Part shown: piece after piece, positions 5,719 through 17,573 of the stretch
How positions within the stretch are numbered: the stretch's first letter is position 1
Layout: the number at the start of each line of letters is the position of its first letter
From: Aeriscardovia aeriphila
GTDB lineage: Bacteria; Actinomycetota; Actinomycetes; Actinomycetales; Bifidobacteriaceae
Length of the DNA: 64,000 nt
NCBI GenBank assembly: GCA_949290445.1
Contig: CASERW010000004.1
Span: 1 to 64,000, forward strand
Reading direction: 5' to 3'
Made by a program: the position numbers and the translations under genes
The notes under the pieces: model-generated
Told to the model about the DNA's origin: nothing
The model's database searches: none
Seen by the model: the letters and a program-made list of their open reading frames with translations, nothing else

Positions 5719-7586
5719 TTACAGGCGGGTGACGAGAGCCTCCCATGGGTCCAAACGCTCATTGAGCAAAGAACCAGCGATGTTAGATGGGTCGTCATTG
5801 GCGATCACCACGCGGGTTGGGCCAATCTTGCCTTCCAGCAACTGCTGGCATTCAACAGGGATCAGCGAATAGGTGGAGCTCATATTCACCATCACCAAGT
5901 ACTGTTCGCCCTCATGCTTGACGCCGTCCTCATCGGTGTAAGAAGCAAGGGTGCGCGTGAATGCATACACATTCTTGTCGTCAGCGGCCACGAGCTCCCA
6001 GGAGCCTGCTGCCACAACCATGTCGTGGTGGCGAAGGTCGATGAGCTTCTTGTAGAAGGCACGCACCGAGTCAGGATCATCCATCTGCGCTTGAGCGTTG
6101 ATGTGGTCCTTATTCGGGTTGACGTTGATCCATGGCTCGCTGCTCGAGTCGGCAGGCATGAAACCGGCGAAAGTGGAAGAATCCCACTGCATTGGGGTGC
6201 GTGCATTATCGCGGCCCACGCGGTAAATTCCTTCCATCATCTTCTCTGGAGTCGTCTCTCCCGCTTCAATGCGCTGGTGGTACAGATTAATAGACTCCAG
6301 GTCACGATAGTCGGAGAGCTTGTCAAAACGAACGTTGGTCATGCCCAGCTCTTCGCCTTGATAGATATACGGAGTACCGCGATGCATGTGCAAAAGCAAA
6401 GCCAATGCCTTTGCCGAGCGCACGCGCAAATCCTCCGTTGAATCGTCACCAAAGCGCGACACCATGCGTGGCTGATCATGGTTATCCAAGAACAGAGAAT
6501 TCCAGCCCTTACCAGCGACAGAAGCTTGCTGTTTACCCAAGCTCTTCTTCAAGTCAAGAGGGCTTTGAGCTGGGGCATCCCACTTTGGCCTGCCTTGCGG
6601 GTCGTCCAGATGGGTGAAGATGAAGAGCATGTCCAACTCATGATTATCAGGATTGGTAATCTCTTCTTGGCGCTTACCTTCAATACCTGGTGCTTCACCT
6701 ACGGTGAGGAAGCCCTGACGGCCTTCGAACACTTCGTGGCGCATTTCCTTCAAGAACTCGTCCAGGCGAGGGCCATTGGAGCAGAAGGGGTAGGGGCTGG
6801 AGAAACCGTCAGCACCCGCAGGCTCTGTTTCCAATTCACTGCCTGGTTCGCCTGGAAGGCGACCGTGAGAATCAATACGCTTGGAAATCTGGGTAATGAC
6901 GTCCATGCGGAAGCCGTCAATGCCGCGGTCAAGCCAGCGGTTCATCATCGCATACACAGCCTTGCGAACCTCAGGGTTCTCCCAATTGAGGTCAGGCTGC
7001 TTCTTGGAATACTGATGGAAGAAGTATTCTCCTCGCTTTTCGTCGTACTGCCATGCAGAACCGCCAAAGTAGCTACCCCAGTTGTTTGGTTCTGCACCTG
7101 GAGTGCCTGGCTTGTGTCCCGGACGCGCAGGACGCCACCAATACCAATCAGCATGAGGATCATTCTTATCGCGGGATGCTTGGAACCAGGCGTGCTCGTC
7201 GGAAGTGTGGTTGACCACGAGGTCCATGACGATCTTCAAACCACGAGCATGAGCCTGCTTGAGCAACTCATCCATATCAGCCATAGTGCCGAACATGGGA
7301 TCGATATCCTCATAGTCGGAAATATCATAGCCATTGTCATCCTGGGGAGAACGATAAACAGGAGATAACCACAACACATCAACACCCAGATCAGCCAAAT
7401 AATCCAAGCGAGAAGTAATACCCTTTAAATCACCAAAACCATCATTATTCGTATCCTGAAAACTATCGTATCCTGAAAACTACGCGGATAAATCTGATAC
7501 ACCACCGCATTCGACCACCACGGGTTTGGCGTTGCGCCGTTGGTATGGATGGAATCAGGTACTGACAGCCTATTCTGAGCAGTCAT
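5719..7586 (-). pseudogene. GH13 oligo-alpha-glucosidase, frameshifted near its N-terminus
   Basis: The intact part (5719-7407, 562 codons) has all GH13 landmarks: VMDLVVNHTSDEH, DGFRMDVI with the nucleophile Asp, FLTVGEAPG with the acid/base Glu, and FLDNHDQPR. The pattern fits oligo-1,6-glucosidase or alpha-glucosidase. The expected N-terminus lies upstream in another frame: it starts at an ATG at 7586 (or 7589) behind AGAAAGG and reads TPNPWWSNAVVYQIYPRSFQDT. It is then thrown out of frame by an exact 17-bp tandem duplication at 7449-7482. Removing one copy restores NNDGFGDLKGITSRLDYLADLG. As written, translation from the natural start stops soon after; initiation at 7407 would lack the first barrel strand. 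Probably inactive, but slippage could revert it. Confidence 0.88.
7449..7482. repeat. 17-bp exact tandem duplication inside GH13
   Basis: The unit TCGTATCCTGAAAACTA occurs twice head to tail at 7449-7465 and 7466-7482. Seventeen bases shift the reading frame by two. One copy encodes the conserved SFQDT of the GH13 N-terminus. Confidence 0.95.
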
Positions 7587-8000
7587 CATTGACCTTTCTC
7601 TCTTGCCTACTATTTTCTTTCATTATAAAAATAATTCAGAGACTATACAAGACCTTGTCCATTTCCTGATTAGCCTCAATAATCCTTCTTGACCTGCTCA
7701 AATTAATAACTTTTCAAAGACTTTGAATATGTTGCATCATCCCATATCCATAGAAATACACAATTATGACGTTTTCATAATCCTAACTATAAAATTATTT
7801 ATATGTACATTTTTCCAAATATGCATCTTATTGAATGTTTCTTCATCATGACCTTTTGAAGTTCTCTCTTTTGGAAAGTACTAGTGTCAATTGAATTTTA
7901 TAATTCAATAAAAAAGAATATCGATATATATCAGCAATTATAGTATACTGAAAGAGATTCTTCATTCAAGGGCGAATGAAGAATACAGAAAGGGTCAACC
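7587..8000 (+). promoter_or_regulatory. AT-rich leader with promoter and 5' stem-loop
   Basis: This 414-bp gap is strikingly AT-rich and contains no gene I can support. Near its end a -10-like TATACT (7944-7949) lies 17 bases after a weak -35-like TCGATA (7921-7926). Just downstream, ATTCTTCATTC (7957-7967) pairs perfectly with GAATGAAGAAT (7974-7984) around AAGGGC. If the promoter guess is right, the transcript begins with this 11-bp stem, directly before the ribosome-binding site GAAAGGG of the secreted-protein gene. Confidence 0.5.
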
Positions 8001-8342
8001 ATGAAAAGCAAAAAAGCAAACATTCTGATGGCAGGTGTTCTCTGTATTGCATTTTTCTGTGCACCTGCTATTACAAATGCAGAGACTCTCACCATTTATA
8101 CACAAGAAAAGTTCCAAGGGAATAGCCTGATCTCTTCAACATGTAACCTTGACGTTGTTGACAACGTTTACGATTCAGGCGCATTCGAGAGTCAGATAAA
8201 AGGCCATAAATGGACATCAGTTTGGAATAATACAGTTCTTTTTGGAGATGAAAGAATCGCAAAAATCTGGAATGGGACGAGTATCGGTTCATTCAACTAC
8301 AAGAATACAGCTGATCATTTCACTTGTAATGGAGGAGATTAA
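8001..8342 (+). CDS. Small secreted protein with a beta/gamma-crystallin-like signature
   Basis: Encodes 113 residues. A signal peptide (KSKK, a hydrophobic core, then TNA before Glu28) predicts a mature protein of ~86 residues. The mature part opens with LTIYTQEKFQG, which fits the Greek-key pattern Y-x6-G; HKWTSVWNNT later resembles the second half of that fold, without the usual Asp/Asn calcium ligands. Two cysteines (STCNL, FTCNG) could form one disulphide. The nearest formal look-alikes are secreted crystallin-type or peptidase-inhibitor I36-type proteins, but similarity is slight and no function is assigned. It is first in an AT-rich cluster followed by a terminator-like hairpin, a lipoprotein and an export system, a position typical of secreted effectors or bacteriocins (inference). 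Confidence 0.72.
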   Translation: MKSKKANILMAGVLCIAFFCAPAITNAETLTIYTQEKFQGNSLISSTCNLDVVDNVYDSGAFESQIKGHKWTSVWNNTVLFGDERIAKIWNGTSIGSFNYKNTADHFTCNGGD

Positions 8343-8366
8343 TCTCTCAATATAAGAATATAAGAC

Positions 8367-8400
8367 GAGAGAGATAGAGAAATCTATCTCTCTCCTTTTC
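8367..8400 (+). terminator. Hairpin with GAAA tetraloop after the secreted-protein gene
   Basis: GAGAGAGATAGA and TCTATCTCTCTC form a perfect 12-bp stem capped by GAAA, followed by CTTTTC. It sits 25 bp after the stop and 13 bp before the lipoprotein gene. The short U-tract suggests partial termination, which would give more transcript of the small protein than of the downstream genes. Confidence 0.65.
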
Positions 8401-8413
8401 AAGAAACACAATT

Positions 8414-9334
8414 ATGAAAAAGATAATCCTCTTGCCAGCAATTGTATTAGTACTCATTTCAATAAGTAGCTGTGGAACACAAAGCACTCAAATATCCGAC
8501 ACTACATATCACGCAATACGGAGCATCTCTGATCCATCAAATAAAGTGTTTTCAGCTCATAATATACTTGAATTACAATGTCTCAATGCTCACGGATTTC
8601 ACTATCCTATCTCCTACACGACCGATGAAACAGATAATACAACTACATCGATCCGAGGAATTTGGAAAGATCAAAAGTCCGCGCTTCTTCGAGGCTATGA
8701 TTCAACATTTTCACCTCAGACTGATGATTCAATAGAGGACTATATCGCGAATTTCTCCGACGAAGAGAAAAAGGTACATGACATTCTGGTTGACGTGTCG
8801 CAACCATCAAACTGCCCAACATATGCTTGGAGCATTTTATTTGATAATAAAAAGAGTGCTGTCGTTCTCACAAACTCGTACAACGAGTTATATCCGCACA
8901 TACGGTTAACTGACTCATACCGTCATGATATTCAAAAACTGATGCAGGAAAAATACTCCCCTTGCATGAAAGGTTACGGATACAACGTCAATAATCCGAC
9001 AGAGATGATCAAATATGCAAAAGAAAAGTTAGGAACATACAAAATAGACAGGCCAAATGCACGAGAACAGGAAATGATCATAAACGACTATTCCTGTCAA
9101 GATAAAGCTCAGCTACGCAAAAAAATCCAATATTACGAACGTCATAGCACGGACTCATGGATAGCAAGTCACGAAGCTCTCATTCTTGAACGCGCGGAGA
9201 AAATGCATAGTGCAGAAGCAGTTGCAAATAAAGTAATCAACGGCTCCTACAGCTATCAAACATCACTAACTGATACAAGAATTTCAAAACAAGAAAGGGA
9301 AAAAATCCAGAATATTCCCTCGCTCCCGCAATAA
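8414..9334 (+). CDS. Putative lipoprotein of unknown function
   Basis: Encodes 306 residues with a lipoprotein signal ending in the lipobox SISSC, so Cys20 is probably lipidated and the protein anchored outside the membrane. The remainder is hydrophilic. Further cysteines (LQCL, NCPTY, SPCMKG, YSCQDK) could form disulphides. No known domain is recognised. The ribosome-binding site is weak (AAGAAAC). Codon use is AT-rich like its neighbours and unlike the flanking genes. Its place between the secreted protein and the transporter suggests a partner, chaperone or immunity role; this is inference only. Confidence 0.7.
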   Translation: MKKIILLPAIVLVLISISSCGTQSTQISDTTYHAIRSISDPSNKVFSAHNILELQCLNAHGFHYPISYTTDETDNTTTSIRGIWKDQKSALLRGYDSTFSPQTDDSIEDYIANFSDEEKKVHDILVDVSQPSNCPTYAWSILFDNKKSAVVLTNSYNELYPHIRLTDSYRHDIQKLMQEKYSPCMKGYGYNVNNPTEMIKYAKEKLGTYKIDRPNAREQEMIINDYSCQDKAQLRKKIQYYERHSTDSWIASHEALILERAEKMHSAEAVANKVINGSYSYQTSLTDTRISKQEREKIQNIPSLPQ

Positions 9335-9396
9335 AGATAGGTGATTGAAGCTGAATTACCTTTTTGCAAAGAACAGTGGAAGAGAAAGAGAATCTC

Positions 9397-10671
9397 ATGT
9401 GGCGCAGCCGATCCCATGTTTACAAAGAGAAAGTGAAGAAAACCAATCAGCACGTCTCTGTATCACGTGCATACACGAGTATGCTAACTATTGCTTCTCT
9501 TTTCTTGATTATTTTATGTACCATTATTGCCACAGTAGGTGTTACTCACTCCCTTTACCACTCTGCGACAACGACGGAAAAACTTGCAGTAGTGGCTGTC
9601 GAAAAGAAGCGCATTGAGCAAAACATTCACGGCTCTCTCGTCCGTACTGCTCTCTATTCAATTTCTGTACCTTCTCAGGGAATTGTCACACGAGCGGGTA
9701 GTACACAAGGAAGTGAGCTCAACCTAGGCTCTGTCATAGGAGTTGTTAATGAAATCCCCATTTTCCTCTTTGCTGGCGAAGTGCCCTCATATCAGCCTCT
9801 TGGACGAGGAGCACAGGGAGAAGACGTTGCACAATTACAACGAGGCCTGAGAGGATTAGGCTATAGTATTTATGATCCTGACGGAATTTTTTCGGATTCA
9901 ACCGCCCTTGCACTGTTCCACTATTATCGCAAACTTGGGTTCGTTCCCCATACTGCTGAAGGAACAACGCTAAGCCTTGATACCGAAGCATGGAAATCTA
10001 CTGGGATCCCCCAGAACAACATCGTTTTCTTCCCGCAGCTGCCTGCTGTTGCTACCACGAACTGTGGCAAGCAAGGGCAGGAAGTCTCTTCAGAATTATG
10101 CAAAATCGAGTCGACAGCAGAATCCTACTCTCTCTCCATCCCCAGCGGTGAACTCGCTACCCTTAACAACAGTTCTCTCACAGGGAAAAAAGTTCGAATC
10201 CTTTCTTCTCCCCAGCAAACCGCCACCATAGAAAACGAAATTACAGTGCCCGCTTCATCTTCATCTACTAGTGGTCAAGATGAATCTTTCTCCTCACAAG
10301 AAGACGCATTGTCACTGACCCATCAATCTGATTCAACTCTTACGCATTCTGATGGCGATCCATCTCAGAAAAGCACTACTTCGCATCGCATATTTTCTCT
10401 CTCTATTCCTCAAGAAACGAAGCTTCCTGATAACATCTCCGATATTCCAGTAACTGTTATTCTCAAAACCACGAGCAACCCAGTTCTAACTCTTCCAGCG
10501 ATCGCTTTGCAGCATGAGAAAAACACTTTCATAAAAACCGATAAGGGCACTCGTATCAATGTCAGAGTTGGCTTATGCAATGCAGGAACCTGTGAGGTTT
10601 CTGGGCCTCATCTCAGTGAAAGCACGCGAGTCGTTATTCCTGCCCAGTTGAGCACACCAGGAGGAGAATGA
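9397..10671 (+). CDS. Membrane-anchored adaptor with peptidoglycan-binding domain (MacA-like role)
   Basis: Encodes 424 residues from the ATG at 9397; an in-frame TTG at 9364 is possible, but GGAAGAGAAAGAG favours the ATG. Residues 1-27 are basic, ~28-50 form one membrane helix, and ~134-181 (PLGRGAQGEDVAQLQRGLRGLGY) match the peptidoglycan_binding_1 fold. A Ser/Thr-rich linker follows, then a C-terminal part resembling adaptor beta-domains. In Gram-positive bacteria such proteins couple MacB-type ABC transporters to the cell wall. The gene overlaps the ATPase gene by four bases (ATGA), a sign of coupled translation. Confidence 0.8.
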   Translation: MWRSRSHVYKEKVKKTNQHVSVSRAYTSMLTIASLFLIILCTIIATVGVTHSLYHSATTTEKLAVVAVEKKRIEQNIHGSLVRTALYSISVPSQGIVTRAGSTQGSELNLGSVIGVVNEIPIFLFAGEVPSYQPLGRGAQGEDVAQLQRGLRGLGYSIYDPDGIFSDSTALALFHYYRKLGFVPHTAEGTTLSLDTEAWKSTGIPQNNIVFFPQLPAVATTNCGKQGQEVSSELCKIESTAESYSLSIPSGELATLNNSSLTGKKVRILSSPQQTATIENEITVPASSSSTSGQDESFSSQEDALSLTHQSDSTLTHSDGDPSQKSTTSHRIFSLSIPQETKLPDNISDIPVTVILKTTSNPVLTLPAIALQHEKNTFIKTDKGTRINVRVGLCNAGTCEVSGPHLSESTRVVIPAQLSTPGGE

Positions 10672-11423
10672 TGGAAAAGAAATCCCTTCCTCAACATCCT
10701 CTTGTTTGTTTGAAAGACATAACAAAAACATTCTTACCAAACACTCTCGCTCTGAAAAAAACAAATGTGACAATCTATCCAGGTAAATCTATTGCAATTA
10801 TTGGCCCTTCCGGCTCAGGGAAGTCAACATTGTTGTCGCTGTTAGGTCTTCTTGATACACCAACAAGCGGAGAATATTTTCTCGACGGCAAAAGCACTTC
10901 TTCTCTGAGTGCGAATGCATTGTCACGACTTCGTAAAAACTACATTGGATATATCTTTCAGTCATTCAATCTCATTAATTACCTCACCGTCGAAGAGAAT
11001 ATTCTTCACTGCCTCGCTATCAACTCGATAACGGGGAAAGAGGCGCACATGAGAGCTCAAGAAGCTTTGCAAAGTGTCCAACTCGAGGAAAAAGCAGATG
11101 CATTCCCTGAACAGTTATCAGGTGGGCAAAGGCAAAGAGTTGCTATTGCCCGTGCTATTGCCACTCGACCGCGATTACTTTTGTGTGATGAGCCGACAGG
11201 CAATTTGGATACTCATACGTCTGATCAGATTCTTTCGCTGCTCTTACGCATGGTTTCTCCACAATCTGCCGTTCTCATCGTCACTCATAACCCTGCCATC
11301 GCACAATCATGTGACGAAAGAATCGCCATTATAGATGGAATCGTCACACTCGGGCAATCTGCAGAGGGAACAAGTGATACTGTAATAACGGAAAGGGATA
11401 ACAATGAAGTTTCTCTTCCATGA
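10668..11423 (+). CDS. ABC transporter ATP-binding protein, MacB/LolD type
   Basis: Encodes 251 residues with every ABC ATPase motif: Walker [10 protein letters not shown] (residues ~46-54), a Q-loop in YIFQSFNLI, signature [16 protein letters not shown], Walker [13 protein letters not shown] and a switch His in IVTHN. The layout fits the LolD/MacB/FtsE branch, whose members drive mechanotransmission rather than conventional import. The start overlaps the adaptor stop as ATGA behind GGAGGAG, and the end overlaps the permease gene by 20 bp. The three genes therefore form one translational unit. Confidence 0.93.
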
Positions 11424-12549
11424 AGCTCTTCGATCACTTTTCCGACGCTTTTCTCATAACATTCTCACGCTGATAGCCGTTCTACTTTCTGCCGCGACCT
11501 TTACTGTCCTTCTGGGCATTACTGATAGCTCTGCTGCGCAAACAGCTCGTCGTTTCCAAGCGTTAGAAACTCCTATTCTCAGTGCTATTCTTCCCGCTGA
11601 TTCTTGGGAGGAATCAGAAACATGGATAGAACGGCAGGCAACGCAATTCCATCATGTCCAAAACGCGGGAACATTCAGCATGATGGATACTGATTCGCCG
11701 CTTATCATTCGTTCTTCGCAGTATCACACCACGAGTTCAGTTTCCGTTGCAATAGCTGGGAAAGGAGGATTAAAAGCGCGAGGAGCTCAACTCATCACCG
11801 GTCACCTCTGCCCTGATAGTTCCAATGAACTTTCCTGTGCAGTGCTTGGTCAACAAGTAGCAAAGCAATTGGGAACTCAACCAGGAAGTTATATTGACGT
11901 TAAAAATGTACAAATGCGAGTAATGGGAATTATTCATGATTCTGCAACAGAATCGAGCCTTGCTGCAGCACTGATTCTCTCTCCCCGCACCGCACGATCA
12001 CTCAAGCTCTATCCTACTGAGAGAACAGTTATTGCTCGAGTTACTCCTCATTCCGCTGAAATAGTTGGCTCTCGACTAGCTCAAGCTCTTTCTCCTACTC
12101 AGCCTGAGAATGTGACCATCAAATACCCTGCTAATCCAGAGAAATTGCGCGCTCAATTCGCTTCAGATTCGCAGACATTAATCACCGTGACAGCAACAAT
12201 TATGGCTGTAGTGACAGCTTTCAGCATTGTCAACACCATGCAGATAGCTGTTTCACAACGGAAAAGTGAAATTGGCCTTGATCTAGCTCTAGGGCTTTCT
12301 CGCAAAAGTATTGCCGGTAAGTTTCTTATTGAGTCGACTTTCTTAGGATTATCAGGTTCACTGATCGGCACCCTTCTCGGTTCTCTCTTCGTGGCAATAG
12401 TCACAATGCTCAATCAATGGCCTTTTCTTCTTCCTCCGTTCATTGCTCTTATTCCCGTTTTCGGCCTTGTTCTCGGCGCACTGGGCGGTGTAATTCCAGC
12501 AATCATGGCTTCGCGAGTCAACCCCGTAGAGCTGCTGCATTCCACCTAA
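11404..12549 (+). CDS. ABC transporter permease, MacB/FtsX type
   Basis: Encodes 381 residues: an N-terminal helix (~15-38), a large extracytoplasmic domain (~40-240) and three C-terminal helices (~255-280, ~305-335, ~345-370). The closing motif ALGGVIPAIMASRVNPVELLHS is typical of FtsX-like permeases. The start follows GGAAAGG and lies inside the ATPase gene. With the ATPase and adaptor it makes a complete MacAB-like exporter; the natural cargo candidate is the small secreted protein or a peptide outside the window, though the Sec-type signals of the neighbours do not need such an exporter. A resistance or immunity role against an antimicrobial peptide is equally possible. Confidence 0.9.
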   Translation: MKFLFHEALRSLFRRFSHNILTLIAVLLSAATFTVLLGITDSSAAQTARRFQALETPILSAILPADSWEESETWIERQATQFHHVQNAGTFSMMDTDSPLIIRSSQYHTTSSVSVAIAGKGGLKARGAQLITGHLCPDSSNELSCAVLGQQVAKQLGTQPGSYIDVKNVQMRVMGIIHDSATESSLAAALILSPRTARSLKLYPTERTVIARVTPHSAEIVGSRLAQALSPTQPENVTIKYPANPEKLRAQFASDSQTLITVTATIMAVVTAFSIVNTMQIAVSQRKSEIGLDLALGLSRKSIAGKFLIESTFLGLSGSLIGTLLGSLFVAIVTMLNQWPFLLPPFIALIPVFGLVLGALGGVIPAIMASRVNPVELLHST

Positions 12550-12563
12550 TGGAAATATGTGAA

Positions 12564-12598
12564 CGAGAAAGGCCGAGCCACAACAGTGACTCGGCCTT
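12564..12598 (-). terminator. Terminator between converging operons
   Basis: AAGGCCGAG pairs with CTCGGCCTT around a 12-base loop. On the minus strand it is followed by TCTCGTTC, so it probably ends the sugar permease operon. The plus-strand T-tract is poor, although it may also stop transcription from the MacAB-like genes. Confidence 0.6.
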
Positions 12599-14551: not shown

Positions 14552-15835
14552 TCACAGGTAGGAGAAGTTGCGGGACTGAACCTTGTCCCACTCCTTCTGC
14601 ATTCCCGAGATGAACTGTGGAACGTTCTTGCTAATCACGGCGGTCTGCATCATGCCACCCAGGTTGATGGAGGATGGGATGTTGTGGTCAGCGAAGTCGA
14701 CGAGCCTGTTTTCCTTGTAGAACTTCTGAATGGTCTTCAAAGCAGGATCGCCAAAGTGAGTGTTCTTCAGAGGGGTAATGGCGCTCTGCTCGTCGGCATA
14801 CTGGTTCAGTGACTTCTCGCTCATCAAGAAGTTGATGAACTCCATCGCTTCCTTTGGATGCTTGGTGTTCGCGCCCATGGTGAGCATCACGTCGTCACCA
14901 GCAACCAGCAACTGTTCTTTAGGATTATCAGTAGCAGGAAGCTGTGCAAAGCCGAGGTCAGCGTCCTTCTTCACCATTCGCACCTGAGGAATGGCGTATG
15001 TTCCCAGAGGAATGATAGCTGCCTTGCCTTGTGCAAGAAGCTGAGTGCCCTGCTGGTAGGTCACACCCTTGGTACCGGTAGTCATATCCAACAAGTCAAT
15101 GGTGAGCTGAACTGGCTTGGTCCAGATGTCCTTGAAGGTTGCCTCACCCTTGCGCAGCTTGTCGTAATCGGAAACAGGAGTGGTGGTGCCTGCGAAGGAG
15201 GAGAGTGGAGCCTGAGTGGTCCAGCCGTCAGCGACGGTGGCCTGAACAGGGTTCACACCGCAATCCTTGAACTTTTGCACGATGGCCTTGAAACCAGACC
15301 ACGTCTCTGGTGGGTTTTCTGGGTCGACGCCGCACTTGTGCCACACCGTCTTGTTGTAGATGTAGCCAGAAGCATTTCCTGCAAATGGCAGACCGTACAC
15401 ACGCTTCTTTGCGGGGTCGGTGGTCTGAACCAGGTTGCGAGAAATTTCAACCATGCCCTTGTTGAGCTTCTTGACGATCGGGTCGTTGGTGAAATCGTGG
15501 AACATGCCTGCAGCAGCGAATGTTCCAAAGCTGATATCACCGTTGAAAGTAATAACATCAGGCACGCGGTTCTTCACGAAGCGCGTACGCAAATCGGTCT
15601 GTGCGTTGGCCGAATTGTTGATGTTGATATGAATATGCGGGTGTTCTTTTTCAAACTGACGAGCCAAAGTCTCAAACTGATTCTTTGCTTCGGCCTTAAA
15701 TTGGAAGAAGTCCAGGGTGACGTCATCACTGCCCATCACTCCACAGCCCACAAGGGACATCGTGGTAGCAACCGAAACCGCGATAGCTGCTGCTGCCCTG
15801 GCCACCTTCCTGACCGTGCCGGAATGTACCTGCAT
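14552..15835 (-). CDS. Sugar-binding lipoprotein of ABC transporter (CUT1)
   Basis: Encodes 427 residues starting at the ATG at 15835, chosen because AGGAGAAAGG lies upstream; an alternative ATG at 15868 has no such site. The signal ends in the lipobox SLVGC. The mature protein has the solute-binding family 1 pattern ([44 protein letters not shown]). It captures oligosaccharide outside the cell for the two permeases downstream. A 42-bp imperfect repeat array lies in the region between it and the divergent ROK gene, which probably holds the operators. Confidence 0.92.
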
Positions 15836-15914
15836 CGGATGTGACCTTTCTCCTCGTTGATACTTCATCAGTCGTTCTCAAGAACTTGTTTTCCCACCAC
15901 CAGCTGGACCTCAA

Positions 15915-16030
15915 TTGCTGAGCAAACGTTGCCTCTCGAAATTTGCCGAGCGACTGTTGCTGGGCGAACCTCGCTGTGCAAACTTTGCCGAGCGACCATT
16001 GCTGAGCAAAATATGCTGTGCAATTCATGC
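15915..16030. repeat. 42-bp imperfect tandem repeat upstream of the binding-protein gene
   Basis: Two full units (15915-15956, 15957-15998) and a partial third begin with TTGCTG and contain TTTGCCGAGCGAC at the same phase. It lies in the 484-bp divergent gap between the binding-protein and ROK genes. The phase of 14 codons means a hidden frame repeats, but no gene is supported. It could be a cluster of operator sites or a decayed duplication. The rest of the gap (16031-16319) shows no clear structure. Confidence 0.6.
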
Positions 16031-16319
16031 CATCCTTGCTGAATGAACTCTGGGAAAATTCATTCTGAGGAAATGCTTCCTCACATTTCCATCTCTTTCA
16101 TTGTCGACGGTCTTTTTTTACTTTCAAAACCACGACAAATGCAATAAGATGAAATTAATAACGAAATGCCAGAGGAGTAGTGCAGGCGCTTGCGCTTGAG
16201 CCCTAGGGTGTTGAGCTGCGTGAGTTTGCGTCTCGCGTGCTTTGGATTATGTGAGTTTGTGTTTTGCAAGCTGCGCGGACGCGAGCCACCTACTTCTGAG
16301 TGAATGAGAGAGAGTTACT

Positions 16320-17573
16320 ATGGCAGATTTCGATAAGGCAGCGCTTTTCCCGCCACAAGCCGCTCAACCATGGTTTGACGGTTCTGAGTGGACGCACCGT
16401 CTCGCCGCCGATATTTTGATGTATGGCCCTATTTCTCGCACAGGCCTCGCTCGTCTTCACTCTCTCAGCCAGGGTACGGTTTCACGCATTACCGCCGACC
16501 TTATTTACGATGGTGTTATTACTTCTACCGATGAAGAAAACTCCAACTCCCCTGTCGATGAGCAAGACGCAGAAGATAAAGACTCTGCAGGCCGCGGCCG
16601 CCCACAGACTAATTTGCGCATCATCGACGACGCCAACACCTTTGTGGGAATTAATCTGCGCGGTGAAGTCGCCCGCGCAATGCTCGTGAACACCTCCTGC
16701 AAGCAGCAAGGAAACGTGCACGAAGAGTACTTCACTGACACTACCCCGCAAAATGTGACGCGCGCTTTAGCCAAGCTCATCTACCAGTGCTGCGACGAAG
16801 CAAAATCGTTGAATTTGCCGACTCCGCGCATGGTGGGCGTGAGCATTGGCGGCCACATTATGGACGATGGAACTGTTGACCAAGCCCCATTCTTGGCATG
16901 GAACCATCGTGTTGATGTGGGTGGAATGGTGTCCGAATTGACGAATATTCCGTGCTATATTTTCAACAATTTGGACTCTCTTCTGCGCTACCAGCAGTGG
17001 TTCGGTGCAGGGATTGGCGAGACTGATTTCGCTATTGTTACCGTGGGCGCAGGAGTCGGCTACGGCCTGGTTTCTGGTGGCGAAGTGGTGCAAGCTCCTG
17101 GAGAATCCTACGGATTAGCAGGCCATATTCTCATCGACCCTGACGGCCCAGCCTGCTTGTCCGGTCGTCGTCATCGCGGTTGCTCGCAGTGCTTGACGAA
17201 TGATTCTTTGGCTCAGGAATACTCGGAAATGATTGGCTCTCCGAAGACTTTCGACGACTATGCTCATGACGTTGAGCAAGGCGTTCCTCAGGCAAAGCGC
17301 CTAGTTCAGCGCGAAGCCTTCCGCGTAGGCGCACTCTTGGCAGTAGTGGCCAATATGGCTATGCCTCGCACCATTTTCATCTCTGGTGAGTCTTGCTCTA
17401 TTTTGAAGTACGCGATGGAGTCGATTCGCATGGGATTGTCAGAATACCGACCCAGCCGCGCACCTCAAGTTGAGTTCAGCATTCTTCAGGATGACGATTC
17501 CCCATGGATGATGGGCGCCGCAACTGAAGCAATCCGCCTCTTCGTCCTCGGCCCGAAGATGGCGCTGAAGTGA
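16320..17573 (+). CDS. ROK-family transcriptional repressor (NagC/XylR type)
   Basis: Encodes 417 residues. An N-terminal winged helix (GPISRTGLARLHSLSQGTVSRITADLI, residues ~38-65) precedes an acidic insertion and a ROK sugar-kinase-like domain with VGVSIGGHI, GAGVGYGLV and the zinc site GHILIDPDGPAC..GC..C. ROK repressors release DNA when they bind a sugar or sugar phosphate. It is divergent from the ABC operon and faces the GH36 gene on the far side, so it probably controls this alpha-galactoside locus (inference). The ATG at 16320 follows GAGAGAG. The kinase catalytic function is not expected in this branch. Confidence 0.9.
   Translation: MADFDKAALFPPQAAQPWFDGSEWTHRLAADILMYGPISRTGLARLHSLSQGTVSRITADLIYDGVITSTDEENSNSPVDEQDAEDKDSAGRGRPQTNLRIIDDANTFVGINLRGEVARAMLVNTSCKQQGNVHEEYFTDTTPQNVTRALAKLIYQCCDEAKSLNLPTPRMVGVSIGGHIMDDGTVDQAPFLAWNHRVDVGGMVSELTNIPCYIFNNLDSLLRYQQWFGAGIGETDFAIVTVGAGVGYGLVSGGEVVQAPGESYGLAGHILIDPDGPACLSGRRHRGCSQCLTNDSLAQEYSEMIGSPKTFDDYAHDVEQGVPQAKRLVQREAFRVGALLAVVANMAMPRTIFISGESCSILKYAMESIRMGLSEYRPSRAPQVEFSILQDDDSPWMMGAATEAIRLFVLGPKMALK

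Follow-up and report, generated by a model that had tools for sequence, protein, structure and literature searches.

Which genes of an AT-rich island of Aeriscardovia aeriphila belong together, and what might they do? The island lies in a stretch of 64,000 nucleotides (assembly GCA_949290445.1, contig CASERW010000004.1, positions 1 to 64,000 of the forward strand), hereafter the window, and contains five co-oriented genes, here called A to E, for a small secreted protein, a lipoprotein and a MacAB-like transporter set. A preliminary description, made from the sequence alone, had considered them a horizontally acquired antagonism or defence module, with the lipoprotein as one part of five. The comparative analysis revealed that the core unit is A plus the lipoprotein B and not five genes alike. 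In 80 loci that were fetched on B alone, 43 contain an I36-like secreted gene immediately upstream of B on the same strand, and 2 I36-like open reading frames (ORFs) were present elsewhere in the 845,592 bases (0.85 Mb) fetched altogether. This A-B linkage is strong and unexplained. The elements of the island are listed below.

7652 to 12567, plus strand: acquired island, absent from the sister species G001 (blastn against the G001 stretch L223, GC profile)
7652 to 8000, plus strand: upstream region, predicted from its AT-rich composition (29% GC) to hold the promoter
8001 to 8342, plus strand: gene A, small secreted protein, remotely I36/beta-gamma-crystallin-like (ORF, relatives, profile comparison)
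8362 to 8399, plus strand: GAAA-capped hairpin with a 12-bp stem between A and B (RNA fold, -20.0 kcal/mol)
8414 to 9334, plus strand: gene B, lipoprotein of 306 amino acids, core partner of A and proposed immunity protein (alignments, AlphaFold2)
9364 to 10671, plus strand: gene C, membrane-anchored adaptor of 435 amino acids with a PG_binding_1-like segment (PF01471, 22.7 bits)
10668 to 11423, plus strand: gene D, ATP-binding cassette (ABC) ATPase of 251 amino acids, MacB/LolD/lactococcin-972-export type (TIGR03608)
11404 to 12549, plus strand: gene E, FtsX-like permease of 381 amino acids with a MacB periplasmic core domain (PF02687, PF12704)

Within the family, the complete set recurs. Gene A was detected in 7 of 189 Bifidobacteriaceae genomes and in none of the three congeners. 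The six other carriers are a Bifidobacteriaceae metagenome-assembled genome, Gardnerella vaginalis 1500E, two strains of Bifidobacterium thermophilum, Bifidobacterium vespertilionis and Bifidobacterium cuniculi. All of them show the identical order A-B-C-D-E, and the neighbourhood search proposed in the preliminary description thus found the small gene accompanied by all transporter genes in every case. These carriers came from an alignment scan of genome contigs; a single-sequence scan gave no matches. In the plasmids and phages searched, A was not found, and a second match in genome G088 (L018) was rejected as spurious because it reads through stop codons. The common type of the transporter genes could suggest an ordinary drug exporter that an unrelated small gene adjoins by chance. 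Yet the gene order is kept in 6/6 other genomes although their A proteins are only 36-48% identical to that of the window, and A adjoins B in 43 of 80 independent loci. The recurrence of gene order and A-B pairing refutes a chance neighbourhood, to which we assign a negligible probability.

Adaptor and ATPase are missing from the fetched stretch in 51 of the 80 B loci, some of which are on short contigs, and A-B pairs without C-D-E nearby occur in large-genome actinobacteria. As such pairs exist, C-D-E would not be the obligatory exporter of A; these genes are probably not required for A and are better seen as auxiliary. Arrays of B that precede C-D-E in the absence of A suggest in turn that B and C-D-E work together. 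The five-gene module therefore recurs as a whole in Bifidobacteriaceae, but it does not describe the wider distribution, in which A-B is widespread without a nearby transporter.

Gain and loss of the two genes provide further information on their relationship. In B. vespertilionis (L017), the pair was duplicated as a pair (A-B-A-B-C-D-E), and L121 has the order B-B-A-B-A-B-B-C-D-E. No recognisable A is present in L139 (5043 to 8030), where three consecutive B genes precede C-D-E, in L151 (5142 to 10242, flipped), where five do so, in L054 (B-B-C-D-E), in L056 (B-C-D-E) and in L055, which contains an orphan B alone; this refers to the models used, and an A of a missed fold could sit in some of these loci. 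L140 has the order B-B-B-A-B-C-D-E plus a frameshifted A ahead of the third B, which is itself intact. No Bifidobacteriaceae locus showed the reverse case of an A that lacks B. Thus, A and B are co-inherited and B is retained where A is lost, an asymmetry that by analogy fits the pattern of effector and immunity genes. For comparison, 27.5% of pneumococcal strains retain only scbBC of the scb bacteriocin locus, i.e. an A-less version (PMC11796350). In L017, both B copies share almost all of their last 125 residues, and their nucleotide sequences are the same over nearly all of the last third, whereas at the protein level roughly half of the preceding residues are identical; the A copies differ as well, with 71 of 113 residues identical. 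As the identity is largely confined to the last third, the C-terminal part of B was apparently exchanged while the part nearer to A diverged. Divergence of A and of the N-terminal part of B is expected if these form the matched part.

A of the window has 113 amino acids, with a signal peptide at about residues 1-27 that ends near A27. The mature part of 86 residues starts with LTIYTQEKFQG, and the secreted product of about 86 residues with a Y-x6-G signature is therefore present as described. Its relatives share an invariant core of D54-N55-x-Y57-D58-S59-G60, W75, G82-D83 and A104-D105-H106. C48 is the only invariant cysteine; since C109 is absent or displaced in both L017 copies, the disulphide that had been considered possible is not a feature of the family. 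Window A matched no family in Pfam (E<=5), NCBIfam (E<=1) or PADLOC, and the seven Bifidobacteriaceae members matched no relevant Pfam family, so that a direct match to PF03995 or PF00030 is lacking. By hhalign, the mature A family aligned to an I36-like set with a probability of 95.5 and a score of 44 over 32 columns, whereas none of 200 column shuffles scored above 16; an earlier comparison to a smaller set of 13 I36 proteins had aligned 14 columns and the larger set did better. An I36-like model without Bifidobacteriaceae members also matched the A proteins of L016 (5.7e-5), L013 (4.3e-4) and L014 (1e-3). The AlphaFold2 model from seven rows (pLDDT 48.8) was too poor to use, a fold search against the PDB had no match, and the top PDB sequence match, 2kp5, covers two short Greek-key-like stretches with a weak E=0.79. 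These data give fair support to window A as a remote member of the I36/beta-gamma-crystallin-like proteins, with a putative crystallin Greek-key fold. Its crystallin-like nature, as noted before, is thus upheld remotely, via profile-profile comparison and relatives, and not via a confident structure model.

The proteins encoded upstream of B are diverse. When I36-driven loci are included, there are 72 upstream candidates, 43 of which match PF03995 (Pfam, E<=0.01), three match Crystall (PF00030) and one, a secreted protein, matches PG_binding_1. SH3-like secreted proteins occupy the same position in L059 (SH3_3, E=0.02, under the cut-off) and in L060-L062 (by eye). In L162 (6178 to 6603, minus strand), the secreted protein upstream of B is a PG_binding_1 domain protein, which hints at the cell wall as a possible target of B-linked secreted proteins. 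Binding to the wall or a function as ligand is also conceivable for small beta domains that are Sec-secreted and in some cases SH3-like or peptidoglycan-binding, and A might then be a secreted signalling or structural protein with a role, for example, in development or adhesion, and B its receptor. The occurrence of A-B pairs without C-D-E nearby in large-genome actinobacteria agrees with this, but developmental genes do not usually show the patchy distribution, the mobility and the losses seen for A, and we consider this explanation improbable.

B is an unnamed actinobacterial lipoprotein family, judged from its sequences, and a lipoprotein does follow the small gene as first stated. In the window, it has the lipobox cysteine C20 and four further cysteines (C56, C134, C184 and C228), and these five residues together with G189 are invariant in an alignment of 27 diverse members. 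The AlphaFold2 model is confident and all-helical (pLDDT 88.5), with no fold match in the PDB at E<1, and no model in Pfam or NCBIfam covers the family. Alignment of the B set collected near I36 genes with the Bifidobacteriaceae B set spans 266 columns, with an hhalign probability of 99.1. At the level of the order, 59 of 228 genomes contain B, and at the level of the class 43 of 198. In B. thermophilum JCM 1207 (L015, about 9610-9630), two extra single bases within C runs interrupt the reading frame of B compared with strain DSM 20210, which probably reflects a sequencing error and possibly phase variation.

Based on these observations, we propose a horizontally acquired antagonism module with A as antagonist, B as immunity lipoprotein and C-D-E as auxiliary components, and give this proposal about an even chance of being correct. 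A would leave the cell via Sec, adopt a small crystallin-like beta fold outside and act on the envelope of competing bacteria. On the producer itself, B would be located at the outward-facing side of the membrane and would neutralise its cognate A. C-D-E, with an adaptor able to hold the cell wall, would work with B and either clear A from the producer surface or move A through the wall. We infer the toxicity of A, immunity by B, A-B binding and the transport role of C-D-E from sequence comparison. An antagonism-type function had already been suggested, and it is favoured by the duplication of A-B, by A-less B arrays and by the decayed A beside an intact B. Several observations weigh against antagonism. 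Window A itself reached only E=3.5 with the I36-like model, with the same region aligned, and the profile link between A and crystallins spans few columns (32-59). B lies directly downstream in 11 of 24 I36-driven loci and is absent there in 13 of 24; as many I36 proteins have no B, an I36 fold alone does not imply an antagonist role. B without A could reflect an A-independent job of B, and in the L015 draft genome B is interrupted while A is intact, although the insertions resemble sequencing errors.

Two alternatives to antagonism stand out, namely protease inhibition and antimicrobial resistance. SMPI, the founding I36 member, inhibits metalloproteinases, and A could be a secreted inhibitor of this kind that guards surface proteins, with B as membrane dock or regulator and C-D-E delivering A across the wall. 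The PF03995 Inhibitor_I36 matches of 43 of the 72 A candidates are in line with such a role. It leaves unexplained, however, the B arrays without A, the orphan B, the decayed A beside an intact B, and the SH3-like or peptidoglycan-binding proteins that replace A before the same B family. We therefore consider protease inhibition doubtful.

The presence of a cell-wall-binding adaptor, an ATPase and an FtsX-like permease was confirmed, with a PF01471 match of the adaptor C that is just short of the cut-off of 23 bits. In a check of C for MacA/HlyD-type adaptor features, the PG_binding_1-like segment was the sole part recognised. The best NCBIfam match of D is TIGR03608 with 200.6 bits, below the cut-off of 254.85, and PF00005 matches with 121 bits; E matches PF02687 (61 bits) and PF12704 (36 bits), each above its cut-off. 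Overlaps between neighbouring reading frames amount to 4 nt for C-D and 20 nt for D-E. D-E combine a MacB_PCD domain, an FtsX permease and a cognate ATPase, as is characteristic for MacAB-type systems. C-D-E could thus serve as a MacAB/Bce-like exporter in resistance to envelope stress or antimicrobial peptides, in which B captures the compound and A has an accessory role as ligand binder or decoy. The MacAB-type set, the B arrays that immediately precede C-D-E, in many cases without A, and the response regulators that flank L016 and L017 (see below) are all compatible with an exporter. Against it, A still lies beside B at loci among the 51 of 80 that lack adaptor and ATPase in the fetched stretch, and the operon of a general pump would have no need of a secreted gene that diversifies. 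Resistance is thus an unlikely explanation, albeit one to be taken seriously.

How does the antagonism module that we propose relate to known systems? MacAB-type (type VII) ABC transporters also comprise an ATPase, an FtsX-like permease with MacB_PCD and a membrane-anchored adaptor, but the window adaptor has a peptidoglycan-binding segment, the single-membrane host lacks TolC and the genes are located directly behind the lipoprotein gene B. Relatives of A at the same operon position in other actinobacteria match I36 (PF03995; SMPI), three also PF00030, and window A shows profile similarity to these families, but window A and its Bifidobacteriaceae relatives reach no Pfam model. No B partner for I36 is described in Pfam, NCBIfam or the literature searched. 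That literature, outside of which most subscription papers remained, also contains no account of the B family, of I36-lipoprotein pairing or of I36 bacteriocins. Crystallin-fold antimicrobials are known from microbes, i.e. the yeast protein WmKT and AFP1/SKLP of Streptomyces, which are small and secreted and have an antimicrobial role as proposed for A. These proteins act on fungi, and we know of no lipoprotein partner for them. Anti-phage defence, the other part of the earlier proposal, was rejected, because the PADLOC matches were all generic, to ATPases for D and a single LolE-like one for E.

Lactococcin 972 and streptococcin B (scbABC) loci likewise start with a small Sec-secreted protein, followed by membrane-transport genes that include an ATPase best matching TIGR03608, and A-less versions exist (scb: PMC11796350). 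Different from these, window A has no TIGR01653 match (NCBIfam, E<=1), no large integral membrane protein of the LclB/ScbB type is encoded next to the ATPase and D is below the TIGR03608 cut-off; instead, the window encodes a five-cysteine lipoprotein, a peptidoglycan-binding adaptor and a MacB-type permease. A lactococcin 972 identity is therefore rejected, and the small protein lies outside this family, as had been stated. The Lcn972-type loci of the same order (L101-L106) contain no B or C homologue. One of them (L101) is located on contig 9 of the window genome G000. Its small gene at 9587-9790 is lactococcin-972-like (TIGR01653, E=1.4e-4) and contains an in-frame TGA, and genes for a 671-amino acid membrane protein and an ATPase follow at 9883-12575. 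This is a separate Lcn972-type locus, whose toxin gene is apparently broken.

A wider interpretation, which we hold with somewhat less than even confidence, is that the A-B loci represent an undescribed, class-wide form of actinobacterial antagonism. Polymorphic Sec-secreted beta proteins (I36/crystallin-like, SH3-like and peptidoglycan-binding) would be encoded directly upstream of a five-cysteine immunity lipoprotein of unmatched fold, which is arrayed before a wall-binding MacAB-like machine, and many I36-annotated genes would encode antibacterial effectors. If so, the I36 peptidase inhibitor annotation, which is common in actinobacteria, misleads and hides secreted antagonists with the adjoining lipoprotein as immunity partner. 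It would also provide a concrete competition locus for bifidobacteria and their relatives, for which, to our knowledge, few protein bacteriocins are known. Even if antagonism fails, the A-B linkage ties a secreted family to a lipoprotein family that lacks a Pfam or NCBIfam model.

The GAAA-capped hairpin that had been noted after the small gene is present, and it is predicted to act as a partial terminator or mRNA-stabilising element. The same gap contains strong hairpins of other sequences in L012, L014 and L016 (-31 to -48 kcal/mol), and none that is clear in L013 and L017; a block or stabiliser after A thus appears to be common, but not universal. LuxR-type response regulators flank two of the A-E modules, in B. 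cuniculi (L016, 8174-8965) and in B. vespertilionis (L017, flipped, 15407-17391), and the latter adjoins a probable sensor kinase. This suggests that expression of these two modules is regulated.

The AT-rich block of five genes is borne out by the ORFs (8001-8342, 8414-9334, 9364-10671, 10668-11423 and 11404-12549, all in one orientation), by a guanine-plus-cytosine (GC) content of 0.38-0.47 per gene compared with 0.54 in the flanks, and by a third-position GC content (GC3) of 0.34-0.40 compared with about 0.57-0.68 in neighbouring genes. At the corresponding site of the sister species G001, 385 bp replace the 4.9 kb of the window between the same two genes. In the blastn alignment to L223, window position 7651 corresponds to 7779 and 12568 to 8165, and the flanks are about 91% identical up to 7651 and from 12568. 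The island genes were not found at the corresponding site in G002, and no insertion sequence or integrase gene was seen at the junctions. The segment was either gained in the window genome or lost in G001, and its composition favours gain. The empty site in G001 and the patchy distribution (7 of 189 genomes) support the suggested horizontal acquisition as a unit.

The absence of the 9-mer AGATTATCA had been taken as a further mark of the island, but it carries no weight, since only about 1.6 copies are expected in 5 kb (P about 0.2). The 9-mer itself is strongly enriched, with 21 copies in the window compared with 0.33 expected (e.g. at 1219, 3649 and 30205 on the plus strand and at 2738, 4679 and 14315 on the minus strand). 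Genome-wide, there are 613 copies in the 1.52-Mb G000 and 612 in its sister G001, and 4 and 0 in two congeners; the reversed-order 9-mer, used as control, gave 0-2 copies. Haemophilus and Neisseria have DNA-uptake sequences at a similar density, but such sequences would be unexpected in a Gram-positive genus. Next to the island, a GH13 alpha-glucosidase gene on the minus strand (5719-7589) contains a 17-bp tandem duplication (ATCGTATCCTGAAAACT, 7462-7495) in its start region, which disrupts the frame so that an ORF of 562 amino acids with a missing N-terminus remains.

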